DNA from: Bacteroidota bacterium
GTDB lineage: Bacteria; Bacteroidota; Rhodothermia; Rhodothermales; UBA10348
Length of the DNA stretch: 39,642 nucleotides
NCBI GenBank assembly: GCA_022567305.1
Contig: JADFHF010000035.1
Location: 1-39,642 of the forward strand
Direction of reading: 5' to 3'
Notes under the pieces: model-generated
Seen by the model: only the letters and a program-made list of their open reading frames with translations
Told to the model about the DNA's origin: nothing
Databases searched by the model: none
Part shown: positions 264-33,546 of the stretch, in pieces
Layout: every line of letters starts with the position of its first letter
How positions within the stretch are numbered: position 1 is the stretch's first letter
Made by a program: the position numbers and the translations under genes

Positions 264-710
264 ATGTCTGAACAGATAACCACAGCAAGGTTCACAAACG
301 GAGTGGGCAAGAAAGAAAAGAAAGAGACCGAGGTCCTCGCCAAAGCCCGGCGTCGAACTCTCTCGACGGCGTATAAGATGCGCATACTCGCCGAGGCCGA
401 CGAGTGCACAAGACACGGACAGCTGGGCGCACTGCTTCGCCGAGAAGGTCTTTATTCTTCTTCGCTGCGCGACTGGCGTCGCAAGCGAGATGAAGGCGCG
501 TTCGGGGCCCTTGCGCCGAAGAAACGAGGACCGAAAGTGGTGGCCGATCCAGCGCTTGTGTTCGAGCTTGCGAAGCAGAAAAAGCGAATTGGCCAGCTCG
601 AGAAAAAGCTCAAACGGGCAGAGATGATCATTGACGTCCAAAAAAAAGTCTCGGCTCTGTTGGGAGTCAGTCTGGATGCGATGGACGAAACGGGCGAGGA
701 GAACGGATGA
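264..710 (+). CDS. IS3-family transposase OrfA (DNA-binding subunit)
   Basis: This 148-residue protein has the layout of IS3-family OrfA. An N-terminal helix-turn-helix region (about residues 30-85) contains RRTLSTAYKMRILAEAD and the YSSSLRDWRR motif of the recognition part. A C-terminal leucine-zipper-like coiled coil (about 95-130) is rich in K, L and E and would pair OrfA with OrfAB at the terminal repeats. An AGAGGA sequence sits nine bases before the ATG. The stop overlaps the start of the second transposase gene by four bases (ATGA). An A8 run at 640-647 lies near the end of the frame, where a -1 shift would fuse it to OrfB. Confidence 0.85.
   Translation: MSEQITTARFTNGVGKKEKKETEVLAKARRRTLSTAYKMRILAEADECTRHGQLGALLRREGLYSSSLRDWRRKRDEGAFGALAPKKRGPKVVADPALVFELAKQKKRIGQLEKKLKRAEMIIDVQKKVSALLGVSLDAMDETGEENG
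640..647 (+). other. Probable -1 ribosomal frameshift site (A8 run)
   Basis: Eight consecutive A residues read as CAA AAA AAA GTC in the OrfA frame. The OrfB frame is -1 relative to OrfA and stays open from this run to its own ATG at 707, so slippage here would give a continuous OrfAB transposase. Programmed -1 frameshifting on A-rich heptamers is the normal way IS3 elements make their active enzyme. No downstream stimulatory structure was worked out. Confidence 0.6.
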
Positions 711-1849
711 ACGCCGTGACAACGTATAGAGCGCAGGTGGGTGTGCGCCCGGTGTGCGAGGCGCTTGCTGTTGCTCGTAGTAGCTATTACCGGCATTTGC
801 AACCGAAGGCATCTCTGGTAAAGCGTCTCCGGCCGGGCCGCGCGCTCACGGACTCGGAGCAAGAACGAGTTCTCGAGACCATGAACAGCGAGGAGTTTTG
901 CGACCGCGCGCCGCGTCAGATCTGGGCTACGCTTCTTGACAGAGGCGCTTACCTGGCCCATTGGCGCACGATGTACCGCATTCTGTCTGAAAACAACCAG
1001 GTAAAAGAGCGTCGCCGTCAGATTCGTCACGTCGTTTATGAGAAGCCGGAGCTTCTGGCCACGGGCCCGAACGAGCTCTGGAGCTGGGACATAACCAGGC
1101 TGCGTGGACCGCAGAAATGGACGTACTTCTACCTCTACGTCATCATGGACGTCTTCAGCCGCTTTGTTGTGGGCTGGATGATTGCAAACAAGGAGAATGC
1201 GCGTTTGGCCAAGGAACTCATCGAGGTGACGTGCCGGCGGCAGGGGGTCGAGAAAGACGAACTAACGATCCACGCAGATCGCGGCTCGCCCATGACGTCG
1301 AAGACGGTCGCGCAGCTCTTGGTGGATCTGGGGATCGAGAAATCGCACTCGAGGCCACATGTGTCGAATGATAATCCGTACTCGGAGGCGCAGTTCAAAA
1401 CGATGAAGTACCGCCCGGACTTTCCGAAGAGATTCGGATCCATCATGGACGCGCGGGTTTGGGCACGAGAGTTCTTTACCTGGTACAACGAAGAGCACCA
1501 CCACAGCGGACTTGGCCTGATGCCGCCCAGAGCCATTCACTACGGCGAGGGCGAGGCGCTGAGAAGGCAGCGGGCACAGGTTCTGGCGATCGCCTATGCG
1601 GCTCATCCAGAACGATTTGTCCGGGGCAAACCGATGTTGCCGTCGCTCCCGGAGGCCGTGTGGATCAACAAACCGAAAGAGGTGGGCACAGACGACCAGG
1701 AGCCGCATGAGAATGAAGTCGTGATTCGACCGAACACCATATTAATGAGCGGAGACGGGGTGCCGGGAATGAATGAGATTCCGATCCTTGCGACATGCTT
1801 CAAACAACAAACGCTGGACGAGGCAGCAGAGACAAAAATGGGAGCTTAA
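707..1849 (+). CDS. IS3-family transposase OrfB (DDE integrase domain)
   Basis: This 380-residue catalytic subunit has an N-terminal HTH_21-like region (about 45-110) followed by an rve integrase core (about 120-290). The catalytic triad is visible: Asp in WSWDITRL, Asp in HADRGSPM, and Glu in NPYSEAQFKTMKY. The NPYSEAQFKTMKY and HHSGLGLMPP blocks are hallmarks of this transposase group. The length is somewhat above the usual 270-300 residues because of about 80 extra C-terminal residues. It overlaps the OrfA stop by four bases, which also permits coupled independent translation. Nothing suggests inactivation. Confidence 0.9.
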   Translation: MNAVTTYRAQVGVRPVCEALAVARSSYYRHLQPKASLVKRLRPGRALTDSEQERVLETMNSEEFCDRAPRQIWATLLDRGAYLAHWRTMYRILSENNQVKERRRQIRHVVYEKPELLATGPNELWSWDITRLRGPQKWTYFYLYVIMDVFSRFVVGWMIANKENARLAKELIEVTCRRQGVEKDELTIHADRGSPMTSKTVAQLLVDLGIEKSHSRPHVSNDNPYSEAQFKTMKYRPDFPKRFGSIMDARVWAREFFTWYNEEHHHSGLGLMPPRAIHYGEGEALRRQRAQVLAIAYAAHPERFVRGKPMLPSLPEAVWINKPKEVGTDDQEPHENEVVIRPNTILMSGDGVPGMNEIPILATCFKQQTLDEAAETKMGA

Positions 1850-2235: not shown

Positions 2236-2434
2236 GGCACGACCTCTAAAATTTCTTCTACTGAAATAAACCGATAAACTGTCCCATCGGACAGCGGCAC
2301 TGAATCGCATGGTAGAATGCGTCATTTTTGATGTAAGCTTCCGGTGGCCTACACGTTTATATTCCGCACAGTCTGAAGCTACGTCACCGAGCCATGATCA
2401 TTGTTGGTCAGATTACATCCGCGTGCAATCATTA

Positions 2435-3907
2435 ATGAGAATTAAAGAACAACGTAAGCAACTAGTCAAAAGGCGGCCAACTTTGCTGAACGCCGAGAGC
2501 GCACGCGTTATTACCCGGCCGCATATTCCAGGAGACAAAGCGCGCACCAAGGGCTTGATCGATCGGGTCTCAAAGCTGAGCGACGACGACGTGCATAACT
2601 TGCTGGAGGCTGTACTCCAGGACTTCTCAGGGCGTCACCGGAACTTCCGAGGGGCCTTGCAGAGGAACTTTAGTCGTATTGCAGAACAAGTCCCGAAACG
2701 AATCTTTCTGTCATCCGAGCAACAACTTCTGCTTGGTGCCTACTTTACCGCAGAGTATTCAGTTGAGTCAGCGGCGCTTTTTAATCCTTCTATCGTTCCC
2801 CATCCTGACCAGACAGGCGTGGACAAGGGATCGCAGCGATTCGTCATGAGCTTCAGGGCGACAGGTGAAGGTCATGTGTCCTCGATTGAATTTCGTAGCG
2901 GAATGGTTGACGAAAACCACGACATTTACTTCGATCCCATTAGCCAATACGTGGCCACGCCTGAGATGCACACAGATCCTGTCTATCATCGTCTCCATTT
3001 TCGACGAAAACTCGAAGAGATGGGAGTACGCGATCAGGTTACGAATCGCCTGTTGGAAGGATTAGACGAGACGTTTACGTGTGATGAGCTGGAAACACGA
3101 ATACAAAATCTTCACTCAACCAAGTTTCGACTGAAGGACAAACAACACGCGATTGATACGGCGCTGTGGCTGGCTCGGTCCAATTACGAAGTAATATTCC
3201 GGCCTGATGAACAGATCTCTGAGAGAGTAATCTTCCCGGTGTCGGAAAACGAGAGCGCAGGCATCGAGGATGCTCGGTTTGTGCGTTTCGAGAATGATGA
3301 TAAATCAATCATCTACTATGCCACTTATACCGCATACAACGGTTTTGACATACTGCCGCAGATTCTCGAAACGACCGACTTCCTGAAGTTCAAGATGCAT
3401 ACGATCACCGGCGAAGCAGCGCAAAACAAGGGAATGGCGTTATTTCCGAGAAAAATCAACGGCAAATTCGTGATGTTGTCACGCCAGGATGGCGTTAATA
3501 ACTACATCATGTTTTCGGACAGCCTTCGTTTCTGGAACGAGGCGGAACTCCTACAGGAGCCTGTTCATCCGCTGGAGTTTGTTCAGGTTGGCAACTGTGG
3601 ATCGCCGGTGGAGACATCTGAAGGATGGCTCGCACTTTTTCATGGCGTCGGACCGATGCGCAAATACAGCGTCTGGGCTCAGCTTTTGGACCTTCACGAT
3701 CCGTCGCAGGTTATCGGTCGGCTAGATGAGCCGATACTGACACCTGATGAGCTTGAGCGAGACGGTTACGTGCCCAATGTAGTCTATACCTGTGGAAGCA
3801 TGATTCACGGGGATACATTGATAATTCCGTATGGCATCGCTGATCAAAGATGCAGGATTGCTACTGTCTCCATAATGGAGCTGTTATCACGGCTTAAGGC
3901 AGATTGA
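2435..3907 (+). CDS. GH130-family glycoside phosphorylase/hydrolase (beta-mannoside type)
   Basis: GH130 enzymes phosphorolyse or hydrolyse beta-mannosides, typically releasing mannose 1-phosphate. This 490-residue protein shows the family pattern: an N-terminal arm with RRPTLLNAE and RVITRPHIPG, then a five-bladed propeller with the catalytic-type motif GIEDARFVRF (about residues 275-285), the YTAYNG segment, GMALFPRKINGKF, GNCGSPVETSEGWLALFHGV, and the closing YGIADQRC. The frame is open further upstream to 2309, but the family homology starts at the ATG at 2435, so that start was chosen; no Shine-Dalgarno is evident. It converges on a GT4 glycosyltransferase with only seven bases between the stops. 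That pairing suggests linked synthesis and turnover of a mannose-containing glycan. Substrate linkage cannot be read from sequence. Confidence 0.85.
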   Translation: MRIKEQRKQLVKRRPTLLNAESARVITRPHIPGDKARTKGLIDRVSKLSDDDVHNLLEAVLQDFSGRHRNFRGALQRNFSRIAEQVPKRIFLSSEQQLLLGAYFTAEYSVESAALFNPSIVPHPDQTGVDKGSQRFVMSFRATGEGHVSSIEFRSGMVDENHDIYFDPISQYVATPEMHTDPVYHRLHFRRKLEEMGVRDQVTNRLLEGLDETFTCDELETRIQNLHSTKFRLKDKQHAIDTALWLARSNYEVIFRPDEQISERVIFPVSENESAGIEDARFVRFENDDKSIIYYATYTAYNGFDILPQILETTDFLKFKMHTITGEAAQNKGMALFPRKINGKFVMLSRQDGVNNYIMFSDSLRFWNEAELLQEPVHPLEFVQVGNCGSPVETSEGWLALFHGVGPMRKYSVWAQLLDLHDPSQVIGRLDEPILTPDELERDGYVPNVVYTCGSMIHGDTLIIPYGIADQRCRIATVSIMELLSRLKAD

Positions 3908-3922
3908 GCTGACCTTAAGCCG
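3890..3922. terminator. Perfect 10-bp inverted repeat spanning two convergent stop codons
   Basis: CGGCTTAAGG at 3890-3899 is perfectly complementary to CCTTAAGCCG at 3913-3922, with a 13-base loop. The left arm is inside the last codons of the GH130 gene. The right arm contains the TAA stop of the convergent glycosyltransferase gene. It may stop transcription in both directions, although no T tract follows on either strand, so classical intrinsic termination is uncertain. Confidence 0.5.
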
Positions 3923-6230
3923 CATCGGGCTGTGCAACGGGGCGCTTATCGCCATCTGATTCTACAACGTGATTGTGAGTCGCTGTTAATCCTCGCAGAC
4001 TGTAAATAGCGAGCAGGGAGCACAGGTAAGACAGTGTCGATTCGGCACCCTGATCTTCATTGACACCATTCGCAGTGAGCCCATTGCAGCATCCGCCGCT
4101 GGCAAAGTCGTAAAGTTGCATTTGTTGATCGTTCTTCCCCAAATACCAGTTGAAGCAGGTGGATGCCAGCTGAGTCCATTCTTCACGTTGTGTACATTCA
4201 TAGGCTTCGATACTGGCGCCGATCATGGCGGCTGCTTCAAGTGGCTGTTGATCGTATTGCGCTTTGCTACCGGATTTGGGGAACCATCCTTGATTGCCAA
4301 CGGGTGCGAACCATCCACCGGATGGATCGAGCTGGATATCTCTTAGCCACTCAAGCACGTCGATACCGGTCTTCACCATGTCATTATCGTTGGTAACGCG
4401 ACCACAGACGATCAGCGCTTCGGGCAGGCGCGCATTGTCGTAGGTCAGCTCGGCTTCGTGCCATTGCCAGTCTTTGGTGGCGAAATGACGGAAACGTTCC
4501 AGCAGTCTGTTGCCCAGCGCTTTGAGTAGTCGACGAACCTGGAGATCACTGTCGTTCCGGCGCAGGTACGCGTGAATCCCGAGGATGGGGAATGCTATGG
4601 CACGGGAATCCGAAAAGCTCTCCAATGCTGGCAGCGCAAGGTGGAAGAGTTTAGTTGCGAGAGCGACTTGACCTGAGTTCTGACCCCAGCCTGCCATCAC
4701 GCCCAGTGCCCACAGCGCGCGTCCGTGAGAATCTTCGGATCCAATGGCGTCCAGCCATTTGCGCTCGTACGACATGAAATTGCGAAATCTGCCGGTGTCT
4801 GGATCGAAAGCGTTGTCCAGGAAACTGAGATAAATCGACGACAAATCGATCAGTGAAGTATCGCCTCGACTCAGGTCGTATGCTCTGGCAGCGACGATTA
4901 GCGCACGAGCATTGTCGTCTACACAGTATCCATGGGTTCGGTTGGGAACCGTGAACTTGGCATGCTGGAGCATGCCAGTGTCATCTGTCATATGGCGGTA
5001 ATGACTCAGGTTAATCTGCGGCAGCCGCTGTTCCTGCTCACTCAGTGTACTGAGTATCCGGACATAAATTGCACGCGAATGTCGTGCCTTGGCCTGCGAG
5101 AACAGTTCCAGGTAATGGTGGCCCATCTGCTTCATCACCATCGGCCGGGAGTATTCATAGGCGGCACGACGTAATTTCAGACGCTCTTCGGGATGGTCCA
5201 GAAGTTGATTGATCTCGTGCGCCAGCGCCTGGTGGTCTTCGAATGGTACAAGCCTGCCACGCCCATCCGCCAACATCTCTTGTGCGTGCCAGTACGGAGT
5301 AGATACGACGGCCTTGCCTGCCCCAACCGCGTACGCCAGCGTGCCGGATACAATCTGAGCCTCATTCAGGTAAGGGGTGACGTAGATATCGGCAGCCCGA
5401 ATTATCTCGAGCAATTCTCCGCGCTCCAGGAATCGGTCATGGAACACAATGTTGTCGCCGACGCCCAGTTCCTTAGCACGACGGTGCAAACTCAGACGAT
5501 AGTTCTCACCACTTTCGGCTTTGCAATGCGGATGGGTGGCTCCAACCACGAAATAAAGCACTTCCGGATGTGAGCCGACTATCTCTGGCAGAGCATCAAT
5601 CATGAATTCGATACCCTTGCCCGGCGAGAGCAGGCCGAAGGTCAGAATCACAATTTTGTCGTCTGCGGCGACCTTTCTCTTACACGTATCCGGATCCAGA
5701 AAAGGCACATCGGGAATTCCATGATGGATGAGAACTATTTTGCTCGCTGGAACCTGATATATATCACGAAGAAAATCGGTGCCGCGCTCACTCATCACTA
5801 CCAGGCTGTAGGACAGCTCACATAGCTTGGTAGTGATTTTCAGTTCCTCAGCGAGAGGATCTCTCAATACCGTGTGCAAAGTGGTAATTAAAGGGACTTT
5901 CAAATTTTGTGCAAATTCGATAATAAAGCTACCGCGTTGACCGCCGAATATCCCGTATTCGTGTTGTAGACAGACTACATCTGGAGCGCGCAGGTTCAGA
6001 AAATTGGCAGCGAGACGATATTCGCTTAGATTGTCCTGGTCGATTTGGAATTGAACCTCGTCTGCATACTCGTAGCCCTTCGCTCTATCATTCATGGCTA
6101 CGATAGAACAATCAATTCTCGGGTTGTTGTCGAGAATCGCGCCGACAAGATCAGCCGTAAAGGCGGCGATACCACATTGTCTCGGCAGGTACGAGCCGAT
6201 AAGAGCGACCGAATCTAGAGATGGTGGCAT
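3915..6230 (-). CDS. GT4-type glycosyltransferase fused to a C-terminal alpha/alpha-toroid domain
   Basis: This 771-residue cytoplasmic protein has two parts. Residues about 1-370 form a GT-B glycosyltransferase of the GT4 type: the N-terminal loop SYLPRQCGIAAFTADL, a second Rossmann domain starting FGLLSPGKGIEFMIDAL, and the nucleotide-sugar segment AQIVSGTLAYAVGAGKAVVSTPYWHAQEML. Residues about 390-755 resemble a six-hairpin (alpha/alpha) glycosidase-like toroid, with GYCVDDNARALIVAARAY, DSHGRALWALG and TYDNARLPEALIVCGR. The start at 6230 has a good GGAAGG eight bases upstream and was preferred over 6254. Its partner across the shared terminator is a GH130 enzyme. I infer transfer of a mannosyl or related sugar to build the glycan the GH130 protein degrades. 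The toroid could be a hydrolase, epimerase-like or binding module. Confidence 0.8.
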   Translation of the reverse strand: MPPSLDSVALIGSYLPRQCGIAAFTADLVGAILDNNPRIDCSIVAMNDRAKGYEYADEVQFQIDQDNLSEYRLAANFLNLRAPDVVCLQHEYGIFGGQRGSFIIEFAQNLKVPLITTLHTVLRDPLAEELKITTKLCELSYSLVVMSERGTDFLRDIYQVPASKIVLIHHGIPDVPFLDPDTCKRKVAADDKIVILTFGLLSPGKGIEFMIDALPEIVGSHPEVLYFVVGATHPHCKAESGENYRLSLHRRAKELGVGDNIVFHDRFLERGELLEIIRAADIYVTPYLNEAQIVSGTLAYAVGAGKAVVSTPYWHAQEMLADGRGRLVPFEDHQALAHEINQLLDHPEERLKLRRAAYEYSRPMVMKQMGHHYLELFSQAKARHSRAIYVRILSTLSEQEQRLPQINLSHYRHMTDDTGMLQHAKFTVPNRTHGYCVDDNARALIVAARAYDLSRGDTSLIDLSSIYLSFLDNAFDPDTGRFRNFMSYERKWLDAIGSEDSHGRALWALGVMAGWGQNSGQVALATKLFHLALPALESFSDSRAIAFPILGIHAYLRRNDSDLQVRRLLKALGNRLLERFRHFATKDWQWHEAELTYDNARLPEALIVCGRVTNDNDMVKTGIDVLEWLRDIQLDPSGGWFAPVGNQGWFPKSGSKAQYDQQPLEAAAMIGASIEAYECTQREEWTQLASTCFNWYLGKNDQQMQLYDFASGGCCNGLTANGVNEDQGAESTLSYLCSLLAIYSLRGLTATHNHVVESDGDKRPVAQPDAA

Positions 6231-6396
6231 GCTGATATCCTTCCGACACTCCATTTCAAAGTTACAAACTTAAGCAGCAACTCGAACCTGTGCGAGAAAC
6301 TGATTACCTTCTTGTGCGGAATCCGACGCAGAATACGCTTGGTAGGCAGCGAGAGACCATTAGAAACAAAGTATCGAATTGCATAACGATTTCCGT
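6231..6396. other. Intergenic region upstream of the glycosyltransferase, with one copy of a 16-bp repeat
   Basis: This non-coding gap contains ACGCAGAATACGCTTG at 6326-6341, which recurs exactly at 7358-7373. The minus-strand frame with KRILRRIPHKKVISFSH is open across the whole gap but has no ATG start and ends just inside the neighbouring gene, so it was not called as a gene. Confidence 0.4.
6326..6341 (+). repeat. 16-bp direct repeat, copy 1
   Basis: ACGCAGAATACGCTTG here is identical to 7358-7373. The two copies lie on either side of the mature part of an orphan ORF. A 16-base identity within about 1 kb is not expected by chance. Confidence 0.7.
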
Positions 6397-7509
6397 TCAG
6401 GTGCTCTTCGAGCTTCGAATCGAAGGTTCTTTCAATTTAACTCCGAACTGCTTGTAAACTACTTCCACAAAATCGTTTGGGGATACATCTTTGATTATTT
6501 GCGACTCGTCAAACACCAACGGTTGATACAACATTCCTAATCTCGCGGTTGGAAAATTGAGAGCCATTGCTGGAGTCCCCGGTTGCTCGGGCTCGACAAT
6601 CGAGACTGCATACCCGCCGGTATGAACCGGCTGAATCATTCTAGAAATTATGTTTTCGCCCGGGCTCACTGAAAAGTCTCGACCGACATAAATGAACACG
6701 GATGCCAAATAAGTGAACTCTCCTTCATCGGGGGCAACCGAAACACAAAAATCACCGACCGAGGGCACCGATGAGTCATCAACTACCGCTCGCATAGCTG
6801 TTCTCATGATGGAAAGCAGCCGCGCCGCGGGAGGAAGAGTACTATGAACTTCAGTCCGAAAGCTATCTTGAGAAAGACGCGAGGACTGAAAGCATTCGAA
6901 GCCTTGTTTGTCTCCTATCCAAGTAGTTTTCAAGTCACGCTCGACTAGCCCATCTTCTATCTTTATCAATCCAATGTCAGGGCTCGAATGGGAAACGATA
7001 AATTGAACGGACCTATCAGGATAGGATGTCGCAGCTGCTAGTTTAGGAATCATATCCTCTACGGAACCACCGGTGTCGATTACTTCTGCAACCGAGCGGA
7101 CCATATCTAAGGCTATTTCTACATCACCTGAGAAAGAAAGAGCCAGCGTAGGTGAAATGACGATAGTTTTCAGCGTATCAGTTTTGTAGCTCGATTTTTT
7201 TCCATCGAGAAATTGTACTCGCGTGTCCGAAACGATTCGGGGCCCGCTTTCCGACTGTTGTGCTACAACAAGACTCAAACCGATTTTTGGCTCTAGGAAA
7301 TAACTATTTCTACGCGTCCTCTGCCTAACGGTTTGCGGATCTGCGGACGAGACGCGCACGCAGAATACGCTTGATACGAAGTGCACGCCAGGCAATCCAA
7401 ACAATGAACTTTGATCTAAAAAATACCGAGGGTGAACTAAGACCAGTTGGTGATTCCGTATGCCGGTGCCGACAGTCGTATTTTCGGGGCTCGTGTTCAG
7501 CTCTCTCAT
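6397..7509 (-). CDS. Orphan protein, possibly with an Ntn-hydrolase (proteasome-like) fold
   Basis: I do not recognise this 370-residue ORF firmly. From about residue 77 it reads like a proteasome/HslV-type beta-sandwich: IGLSLVVAQQSESGPRIVSDTRV, then KTDTLKTIVISPTLALSFSGDVEIALDMV, which parallels the strand-turn-strand start of Ntn hydrolases where a substrate-processing protein checks 'SDTRVT...K'. A nucleophilic Thr, Ser or Cys directly after a start Met is not visible, so an enzymatic role is unproven. The first 75 residues include a 16-bp repeat that is also found just downstream of the gene, so the real start may be internal (for example a TTG or GTG near 7290) and the N-terminus as given may be spurious. 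Composition appears AT-richer than the neighbours, which hints at acquisition. Confidence 0.5.
   Translation of the reverse strand: MRELNTSPENTTVGTGIRNHQLVLVHPRYFLDQSSLFGLPGVHFVSSVFCVRVSSADPQTVRQRTRRNSYFLEPKIGLSLVVAQQSESGPRIVSDTRVQFLDGKKSSYKTDTLKTIVISPTLALSFSGDVEIALDMVRSVAEVIDTGGSVEDMIPKLAAATSYPDRSVQFIVSHSSPDIGLIKIEDGLVERDLKTTWIGDKQGFECFQSSRLSQDSFRTEVHSTLPPAARLLSIMRTAMRAVVDDSSVPSVGDFCVSVAPDEGEFTYLASVFIYVGRDFSVSPGENIISRMIQPVHTGGYAVSIVEPEQPGTPAMALNFPTARLGMLYQPLVFDESQIIKDVSPNDFVEVVYKQFGVKLKEPSIRSSKST
7358..7373 (+). repeat. 16-bp direct repeat, copy 2
   Basis: Identical to 6326-6341. Close by, GCCTAACGGTTTGCGG at 7323-7338 also resembles GCATAACGATTTCCG at 6381-6395, so the likeness between the two flanks goes beyond the 16-mer, although the order of the pieces differs. 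Confidence 0.65.
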
Positions 7510-7571: not shown

Positions 7572-8675
7572 ATGCCAAGTGTTGCCCTACGAGGACTTAG
7601 AAAAGTTTTTGACGATGGTACCGTGGCCGTTCACGGCGCTGATATTTCCGTTGAAGAGGGCGAATTTCTGGTCCTGGTCGGCCCGTCCGGATGTGGAAAA
7701 AGCACCACGTTGCGCATGATCGCGGGTCTGGAAACGATTACCGAGGGCTCGCTCTATATCGACGATCATCTAGTCAATGACGTTGCCCCAAAGGATCGCA
7801 ACATCGCGATGGTCTTCCAGAATTATGCGCTCTATCCGCACATGTCCGTATTCGACAACATGGCGTTCGGATTGAAGCTTCGCAAGGTCCCGAAACATGA
7901 GATCAAGGAACGGGTCGACCAGGCTGCGAGCATACTTGGCCTAGAGGATATCCTGGAGCGGAAACCTAAAGCACTGTCTGGCGGACAGCGACAGCGTGTC
8001 GCTGTCGGACGTGCCATTGTCCGACACCCCCGTGTGTTTCTATTTGATGAACCGTTGTCAAATCTGGATGCAAAGCTCCGCGTACAGATGCGAATGGAGA
8101 TCTCGAAACTGCATCGCAAACTCGGGGCAACGATGATTTATGTGACGCACGACCAGGTCGAAGCGATGACCATGGGTGATCGCATCGTCGTGATGAAGGA
8201 CGGGTATATCGAACAGATAGATACCCCCATTGATCTTTACACTCAACCGGTAAATCGTTTCGTCGCAGGATTCATTGGAAGCCCGGCGATGAACTTTATG
8301 GAGGGCACGCTCCAACAGAATGGGTCACTGACGTTTCGTGAAGCGGACAGCGGTTTGTCGATTGTTCTATCGGACGAGCGGAAGTCTTCGCTCGCCGACT
8401 ATATCAATCTCCCGATTACGCTCGGAATTCGGCCGGAGGATATTTCGGTTGCTCGTGCAGATTCGGCTGAAAACGACAGCGCGGTAATCGAGCTCAAAGT
8501 GGAGCTGCTGGAGCCAATGGGTAACGAGATCATCCTTCATGCCAGTTCGAACGCCCTTGAATTTGTCGCACGCGTTGTGCCTCAGGAACTACCGGATCCG
8601 GGGCAAAACATTCGGCTCGCATTTGCTCGATCGAAGTTTCATTTCTTCGATCACGAGAGCGGGAAGTCACTGTAG
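7572..8675 (+). CDS. ugpC: MalK/UgpC-type sugar ABC transporter ATP-binding protein
   Basis: This 367-residue ATPase would energise uptake of sugars, oligosaccharides or glycerol phosphate at the inner membrane. Visible motifs are Walker A GPSGCGKSTTLRM (about residue 37), the Q-loop FQNYALYPHMSVFDNMAFGL, signature LSGGQRQRVAVGRA, Walker B VFLFDEPLSNLDAKLR and switch His in YVTHDQVEAMTM. The C-terminal part (about 240-367) is an OB/TOBE regulatory domain with LGIRPEDI, typical of the MalK subfamily (CUT1). No permease or binding-protein gene lies nearby, so it may serve several permeases encoded elsewhere, as the MsmX-type multitask ATPases do. A position beside carbohydrate genes agrees with a sugar role. 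Confidence 0.88.
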   Translation: MPSVALRGLRKVFDDGTVAVHGADISVEEGEFLVLVGPSGCGKSTTLRMIAGLETITEGSLYIDDHLVNDVAPKDRNIAMVFQNYALYPHMSVFDNMAFGLKLRKVPKHEIKERVDQAASILGLEDILERKPKALSGGQRQRVAVGRAIVRHPRVFLFDEPLSNLDAKLRVQMRMEISKLHRKLGATMIYVTHDQVEAMTMGDRIVVMKDGYIEQIDTPIDLYTQPVNRFVAGFIGSPAMNFMEGTLQQNGSLTFREADSGLSIVLSDERKSSLADYINLPITLGIRPEDISVARADSAENDSAVIELKVELLEPMGNEIILHASSNALEFVARVVPQELPDPGQNIRLAFARSKFHFFDHESGKSL

Positions 8676-33189: not shown

Positions 33190-33546
33190 ATGGCGAAAAT
33201 GAACTGGTTGGATTCAGACGACAGACCTTGGGGTCGCTGGGAAGAGTATCTGAATGAGGACGGATACCGCGTGAAGCGGATCATTGTGCACCCGGGACAG
33301 CGTCTTTCTCTTCAAAAACACGAGCACCGTCGTGAGTATTGGGTCATCGCAGCGGGTACCGGTGTTTTTACGCTGGACGATTCAGAAAAGTCTATTTCGA
33401 CCGGAGATTCTCTTTATATCCCTGTTCACGGTGTTCATCGCGTTCAAAATACCGGCGACGAGCCGCTCATAATCATTGAAACTCAACTGGGTCGCTGCGA
33501 AGAAGACGACATTATCCGGCTGGAAGATGACTACGGGAGATCGTAA
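33190..33546 (+). CDS. Mannose-6-phosphate isomerase-like cupin
   Basis: This 118-residue protein matches the C-terminal cupin of type II phosphomannose isomerase/GDP-mannose pyrophosphorylase: RPWGRWEEYL, RVKRIIVHPGQRLSLQKHEHRREYWVI, and GDSLYIPVHGVHRVQNTG. The metal-binding His and Glu of the cupin core (LQKHEHRREYW) are present. It starts three bases after the NhaC stop, so it is coupled. It could isomerise a sugar phosphate or act as a small binding protein. Confidence 0.85.
   Translation: MAKMNWLDSDDRPWGRWEEYLNEDGYRVKRIIVHPGQRLSLQKHEHRREYWVIAAGTGVFTLDDSEKSISTGDSLYIPVHGVHRVQNTGDEPLIIIETQLGRCEEDDIIRLEDDYGRS

Follow-up and report, generated by a model that had tools for sequence, protein, structure and literature searches.

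The window analysed here is the whole 39,642-nucleotide contig JADFHF010000035.1, one of the 115 contigs in which the 3.76-Mb genome of a Bacteroidota bacterium was assembled. It carries two convergent genes, one encoding a GH130-family protein (2435-3907, + strand) and the other a glycosyltransferase of family GT4 fused to an (alpha/alpha)6 toroid domain (3915-6254, - strand; hereafter the fusion). We found that the fusion is genetically tied to genes of the GH130 mannoside-phosphorylase family and often to a second GT4 gene, that this link extends to GDP-mannose genes in a minority of loci, and that the pairing with GH130 has been conserved in eight phyla or more. We tentatively read the pair, with a probability of about 0.4, as the core of a widespread, horizontally moving module that would act in the cytoplasm on a mannose glycan and recycle mannose 1-phosphate. 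What makes such a cycle probable, to that degree, is that the pair co-occurs in distant bacteria, sometimes beside genes for activated mannose. No description of the module was found in the open-licence PMC literature, as covered by titles, openings of abstracts and passages.

The Fusion and GH130 Are Paired Across Phyla

Outside the window, GH130 lay within 8 kb of the fusion in 72 of 84 loci (23/23 public contigs, 6/6 plasmids, and 43/55 loci from the same phylum). The comparison of gene neighbourhoods proposed in a preliminary description of this DNA, drawn from the sequence alone, thus revealed a conserved pairing. When one genome was scanned for each species, relatives of the fusion turned up at 24 loci, every one with a GH130 open reading frame (ORF), in gammaproteobacterial metagenome-assembled genomes (MAGs), an unassigned bacterium, Chloroflexota, Actinomycetota, Nitrobacteraceae, Omnitrophota, Ruminococcaceae, and a deltaproteobacterium. 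On the contigs with a scorable fusion, GH130 was found within 3 kb in 23/23 cases; L026, which is without an intact fusion ORF, was left out of this count, and L013, L023, and L025 were included though cut by contig ends. Judging from coordinates, GH130 lay within 5 kb in all 25 plasmid records that cover at least 80% of the fusion, the distance being about 1.1 kb or less in 24 of them and 4.5 kb in the other; many of these plasmids are close kin. The plasmid carriers include Ilyobacter (Fusobacteriota) and Deinococcus, and the six plasmids of the 84-locus count were hand-picked from these 25.

Within the phylum of the window, 296 genomes were sampled and 55 had the fusion; the 55 corresponding loci leave out that of the window itself (G000) and count one genome, G068, twice. 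GH130 was present anywhere in the genome in 55/55 carriers vs. 51/241 non-carriers (Fisher p 1.9e-30, kinship being ignored). Carrier genomes hold one to six GH130 matches each, and an accidental GH130 within 8 kb was estimated at about 1-2% of loci, so that a pairing in 43/55 loci exceeds chance.

The facing arrangement described at the outset, GH130 against a GT4-toroid fusion, was borne out by Pfam, by the fold models, and by the 7-bp gap between the convergent stop codons (3908-3914), a spacing repeated in loci L003, L004, L005, L006, L009, and L011. Both proteins look cytoplasmic, as had also been proposed: the GH130 protein begins with MRIKEQRK, and no signal peptide was apparent in the fusions, 0/80 of which reached 2.2 near the N-terminus in a crude hydropathy test (1.87 for the window copy).

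The Pair Was Acquired Horizontally

By sequence comparison the pair in this genome is horizontally acquired, since it lies in a DNA block that matches distant contigs and genomes of the same family are without it. This block of about 3.9 kb (2326-6235), common to gammaproteobacterial and unassigned contigs, matched seven other contigs, most of them gammaproteobacterial, at 80-86% identity (85.8% over 3910 bp for L003), with lower identities of 74-75% to two contigs and of 79% to another that breaks off at its contig end. Its start fell at 2321-2337 (2396 for the two 74-75% contigs) and its stop at 6233-6327; outside these limits there was no DNA match in the loci of those relatives, some of which have short flanks. 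In a quick tree with long branches, the window fusion nested in that clade as sister to 'Bacterium MnTg02', away from the same-phylum proteins. None of the six remaining genomes sampled from this family had either the fusion or GH130.

An rve-type transposase gene (707-1849) lies directly upstream of the pair, the block ends near the gene edges, and the window locus lacks two genes, for a second GT4 and for a short GH130, that stand beside the pair in its nearest relatives. Together with two exchanges, D724N and N734D, at fusion positions kept in 79/80 sequences, these features would fit a pair that was carried along in the transfer and is decaying or idle in this genome, whatever its role in others. 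We nevertheless hold this to be the least probable of the readings considered, because both frames are intact and the ratio of non-synonymous to synonymous substitution rates (dN/dS) was about 0.12-0.17 for both genes against four relatives, though this value mixes time before and after the transfer. Both genes look to be under selection. The transposase ORF overlaps a small helix-turn-helix-like ORF, the two together covering 264-1849 (+) upstream of GH130 in a layout that we take to be that of an IS3-type element.

The GH130 Protein Belongs to a Long Class With a Glutamine at Position 384

The GH130 ORF spans 2309-3907 (+) and the alignment of its relatives begins at the ATG at 2435, giving a protein of 490 aa with a helical N-terminal extension and a five-bladed propeller with a helical insert. 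It matched Pfam PF04041 with an E-value of 1.5e-34 (119.8 bits, cut-off 26), and Foldseek with its model, of modest quality (predicted local distance difference test, pLDDT, 68.6), returned GH130 entries at ranks 1-32 with E-values down to 8e-17. Its best solved relatives were the beta-1,2-mannoside phosphorylases Teth514_1788 (E 2.5e-35), Teth514_1789, and Lin0857, with the beta-1,4 enzymes ranking behind them, in line with the beta-mannoside phosphorylase type initially assigned. Among the matches listed, the relatives were GH130, and GT108 was not among them.

An alignment of 134 GH130 ORFs separated a long class with Gln at position 384, the Q type of the window protein (58 sequences, median 489 aa), from a class with Lys or Arg (55 sequences, median 314 aa); the remaining states were Tyr (7), His (6), Trp (2), and a gap (6). 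Asp279 of the E-D-x-R motif, the catalytic Asp as assigned by motif (PMC4599007, excerpts), is present in 58/58 Q-type sequences, as are Arg350 and His403. From their spacing, the positions of R350, Gln384, and H403 are putative phosphate ligands. K332, in an N-K motif, is Lys in 58/58 Q-type and 39/55 K/R-type sequences. Lys199 of BT3780, a marker of beta-1,2 specificity in excerpts of PMC4599007, had no safe mapping onto the window protein and supports no claim.

Where GH130 lay within 8 kb of the fusion (72 loci), it was of the Q type only (25), the K/R type only (17), both (17), Tyr (7), or His (6), so that the link of the fusion is with GH130 as a whole and not with any single type. Loci L092-L109 (same phylum, mostly family f26) contain a divergent fusion clade (29-35% identity) with a GH130 gene ahead that encodes Tyr or His at 384; MlaE- and MlaD-type genes lie within about 6.5 kb in 12 of them.

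The GT4 Pocket Is Conserved but Rebuilt

The fusion gene encodes 779 aa from 6254 or 771 aa from 6230, the latter start being favoured because the ORFs of the nearest relatives have 771 aa. Its AlphaFold model (mean pLDDT 80.4, predicted template modelling score 0.53) comprises a GT4-like GT-B domain (residues ~13-395; 5070-6215, -) and an (alpha/alpha)6 toroid (residues ~407-756; 3987-5036, -). Pfam PF00534 matched residues 195-367 with 70.8 bits (cut-off 26.4), and no Pfam family was matched in the second half of the protein. The fold neighbours of the GT4 domain were near ties: sucrose-phosphate synthase (Z 35.1), MshA (34.3), PimA with GDP-mannose (33.8), and ManT (32.1). Lys213 is present in 80/80 fusion sequences, and the EX7E motif, which is typical of GT4 without defining the family, is replaced by QX7Y. 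By sequence and fold we would thus place the domain in GT4 without regarding it as a canonical GT4 catalyst, and its pocket, being conserved yet rebuilt, does not allow the donor or the stereochemistry to be read from it. Variants of ManT at Glu313 and Glu321 have been reported (PMC9883506, excerpts).

The preliminary description had seen in the two genes a possible glycan make-and-break pair. Taken plainly, this would mean a reserve beta-1,2-mannan polymerised from GDP-mannose by the GT4-toroid and phosphorolysed by GH130, which the conserved pairing, the beta-1,2-mannoside phosphorylases as nearest solved relatives, and the GDP-mannose genes of some operons would all fit. We consider it unlikely, since it requires an inverting GT4 and since Leishmania uses GT108 for both directions (PMC8950772, excerpts). 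From the initial proposal the pairing stands and the guess of mannose is plausible; against a literal make-and-break weigh the gap between alpha and beta stereochemistry, the replaced EX7E, and Gln384.

The Toroid Accompanies GH130 With or Without GT4

The closest fold to the toroid was that of YPO2471 (PDB 7tem; Z 37.7, root-mean-square deviation, rmsd, 2.9, 334 aligned residues), which was also its closest sequence profile (E 5.3e-22). Tied behind it were a Vibrio exo-glucosidase/glucosaminidase (6gdt, Z 30.2) and cellobiose 2-epimerases (Z 29.8, rmsd 3.2, 328 aligned). YPO2471 is named only 'putative exported protein' and, unlike the window toroid, is not fused to GT4. Across 80 sequences 31 toroid residues were near-invariant, and 27 of them lie on one rim formed by loops and helix starts (171/349 positions), the boundary of which was drawn after the residues were seen. 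They include D446, D447, D508, D724, E600, and E738, and none of the 31 is His. With such an intact set of pocket-like residues the toroid resembles an enzyme more than a regulator, so that the regulatory role once envisaged for the fused domain loses ground.

The cellobiose 2-epimerases, of the AGE fold, share the (alpha/alpha)6 fold with the toroid, use catalytic His residues, and act with GH130 in mannan catabolism. A cellobiose or mannobiose 2-epimerase was rejected as an identity for the toroid, which falls in the same fold class but has neither an epimerase profile match nor a near-invariant His. The GlcNAc 2-epimerase Pfam family had no match in 41 toroid members, with weak matches to GH88 in 8 and to GH127 in 3.

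A profile search of the 296 same-phylum genomes found 24 further toroid places outside the fusion, 22 of which were counted as stand-alone toroids (G008, a near-twin of G003, and G041, a fragment, were left out). GH130 lay within 8 kb of 21/22 and within 2 kb of 19/22, and a solute-binding protein (SBP) gene within 8 kb of 19/22, a frequent arrangement being an SBP and two permease genes followed by GH130 and the toroid, the last two in variable order. With a cut-off of 2.0 over a longer stretch, the crude test gave a hydrophobic N-terminus in 18/22 stand-alone toroids, 16 of which reach 2.2. D446, D447, R450, N492, R512, N607, N708, D724, N732, N734, and E738 are present in 22/22 stand-alone toroids, unlike D508 and E600; among them, D446, D447, N607, and E738 are common to all 22 and the fused toroids. 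In L110 and L111, GT4 and toroid are separate adjacent genes. That the toroid accompanies GH130 with or without GT4 argues for the same class of glycan, and the toroid probably acts on the same glycan as GH130.

These SBP-permease-permease-GH130 operons raise the possibility that the pair is mainly catabolic, GH130 and toroid degrading an imported beta-mannoside while GT4 would serve for disposal or regulation. The genome of the window itself has an ATP-binding cassette (ABC) transporter-GH130 operon on contig C62, with an SBP 41% identical to that of L071. Such a role appears very unlikely for the fusion, which looks cytoplasmic and has a highly conserved GT4 pocket, and no such transporter was identified in most fusion loci.

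Genes for Activated Mannose and a Second GT4 Near the Pair

On a plasmid of Sphingobium xenophagum, genes for GroEL, mannose-1-phosphate guanylyltransferase (GMP), and class I mannose-6-phosphate isomerase (PMI) stand, in this order, before the fusion, which is followed by GH130 and phosphomannomutase (PMM); GMP, PMI, and PMM together cover the route that leads to GDP-mannose from fructose 6-phosphate. The arrangement in Sphingomonas sanxanigenens is GMP-fusion-GH130, with Hsp20, GrpE, and DnaK genes nearby, and that in Sinorhizobium and Devosia is PMI-fusion-GH130. In two Woeseiaceae MAGs a GMP/PMI gene lies 3.6 kb from the fusion, past the second GT4 and the short GH130, and GMP is near the pair in L005, L006, and L021. 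The genome of the window has a GMP-like gene (39% identity) on contig C71 and is probably able to make GDP-mannose. On two Sphingomonas/Sphingobium plasmids typed as conjugative (L036 and L032), the module is embedded in islands that also contain stress genes, among them those for Hsp20, GrpE, DnaK, and GroEL.

The second GT4, of about 340 aa, occurred near the fusion on 12/23 contigs, on 2/6 plasmids, and in 13/55 same-phylum loci, whereas GT4 matches to it in the genome of the window were all weak. Going by the PDB codes, the solved enzyme closest to the second GT4 (E 7e-85) was the glucosylsucrose synthase TeGSS. This relationship, the match of the fused GT4 domain to sucrose-phosphate synthase (Z 35.1), and the GroEL, Hsp20, GrpE, DnaK, or cold-shock gene adjoining some plasmid loci would suit a module that makes a small protective solute, a short mannose/glucose oligosaccharide, in stressed cells, with GH130 recycling it. 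We regard this as quite unlikely: the stress genes were noted, without a count, in a few annotated plasmids only, and the tied fold matches of the GT4 domain (Z 32-35) do not fix its substrate. Away from the fusion, a same-order genome (L113, 7125-11333) has a 724-aa ORF, apparently with two GH130 domains, and a 329-aa GH130, adjoined by a GT4 that is 67.6% identical to the second GT4 of the module.

A Possible Cytoplasmic Mannose-Glycan Cycle

In the cycle that we favour, an activated sugar, most likely GDP-mannose, would feed the GT4 domain, which would make or prime a cytosolic mannoside. GH130 would add or remove beta-mannosyl units in exchange with mannose 1-phosphate, and the toroid would hydrolyse or trim the same glycan, setting the chain length or yielding new acceptors. 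The whole would be analogous to the MmpH/ManT cycle, with GH130 added for the recovery of mannose 1-phosphate.

Several observations weigh against this proposal. GT4 enzymes usually make alpha links, whereas GH130 cleaves beta links and is not known to act on alpha-mannosides; a retaining GT4 would thus give alpha-mannosides, and a literal make-and-break does not follow. The EX7E motif of the fusion reads Q-X7-Y, with Gln300 in 80/80 and Tyr308 in 79/80 sequences; a gapped alternative alignment retains Glu298, yet Glu is found there in only 40/80. Five solved GH130 enzymes have Lys or Arg at the position equivalent to Gln384, and with EX7E lost as well, neither predicted activity can be taken for granted. 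The toroid of the window carries D724N and N734D (4054-4083, -) at its otherwise conserved positions, an exchange that may alter this copy. The second GT4 is closest to a UDP-glucose enzyme. Twelve of the 55 same-phylum loci, including all five of one same-order genus, are without GH130 within 8 kb (in one of the twelve, G261, it is 9.6 kb away). Finally, PMI, GMP, or PMM genes adjoin the pair in some loci, GDP-mannose or mannose-6-phosphate genes lying within 8 kb of the fusion in only 7/84 loci and in 0/55 of those from the same phylum.

A more specific version of the mannose-glycan cycle, mobile and multi-phylum, would centre on a fusion of synthase and hydrolase, in which a GT4 with its donor site rebuilt as QX7Y is joined to an (alpha/alpha)6 domain from a new family resembling mannosidases. 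Its partner would be a GH130 of the Q type acting by transfer instead of phosphorolysis (a bacterial answer to GT108), and the toroid in exported form would open the same glycan extracellularly in ABC-transporter operons; taken as a whole, we find this version unlikely. Should the favoured cycle be real, many bacteria, including plasmid-bearing Sphingobium and rhizobia, would hold an undescribed cytosolic mannose glycan, a bacterial counterpart to the mannogen of Leishmania. GH130 genes would gain a role beyond diet, and the YPO2471-type toroid would probably stand as a new family of glycosidases for which a class of substrate can be predicted.

Comparison With Known Systems

The best analogue of the fusion is the mycobacterial methylmannose cycle, in which acceptors for ManT, a GT4 enzyme, are regenerated by the (alpha/alpha)6 hydrolase MmpH (PMC9883506, excerpts). 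In both, a GT4 (the mannosyltransferase ManT) and an (alpha/alpha)6 protein (the endomannosidase MmpH) would share one cytosolic glycan; the mycobacterial cycle differs in its separate genes, its alpha-1,4 methylmannan, and its methyltransferases, and the excerpts name no GH130 in its cluster. MmpH was not among the best 50 fold matches of the fusion model.

For the GH130 part, the best analogue is the Thermoanaerobacter cluster Teth514_1785-1796, in which cytoplasmic phosphorylases of family GH130 are likewise encoded together with a GT4 and a mannose-1-phosphate guanylyltransferase. The cluster has been read as salvage of imported oligomannan (PMC4264767, excerpts); its GH130s differ in being short. 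The parallel with Leishmania mannogen is not supported in the form first given, because its turnover, in both directions, is by GT108 enzymes of the GH130 fold and not by GT4 (PMC8950772, excerpts). The likeness lies in the shared propeller fold class and in a cytosolic mannan that is made and broken (PMC8950772 and PMC3290622, excerpts), and the Leishmania system, as described in these excerpts, has no GT4 and no toroid.

Other Genes of the Window and of Its Genome

A sugar ATPase and a cupin encoded in the window had been suggested as linked to the pair; neither was seen as a recurring neighbour, and we set them aside as module parts, leaving them at best metabolic partners. The cupin (33190-33546, +) is a stand-alone MannoseP_isomer domain (PF01050, E 7e-31) that shares 50% identity with the C-terminal portion of a GMP/PMI protein and is detached from the GMP part on C71. 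The ATPase (7572-8675) is of the MalK/UgpC type.

The operon on C62 (L112; 695-5235, -) comprises an SBP, two permeases, and a 341-aa GH130 nearest Teth514_1788/1789, together with a second GH130 ORF of 149 aa that is a fragment or marks a frame break near the contig start. No ATPase was seen in the first 9 kb, and the orphan MalK-type ATPase of the window might serve this sugar operon. The short GH130 of C62 was rejected as the missing partner of the pair, since it adjoins SBP and permease genes and not a GT4-toroid. Another gene of the window encodes a type IX secretion sorting domain, which points to a host that is probably Bacteroidota- or Rhodothermota-like. Next to the fusion gene, the window encodes a 370-aa protein (6397-7509, -) that matched no Pfam family at the thresholds used.

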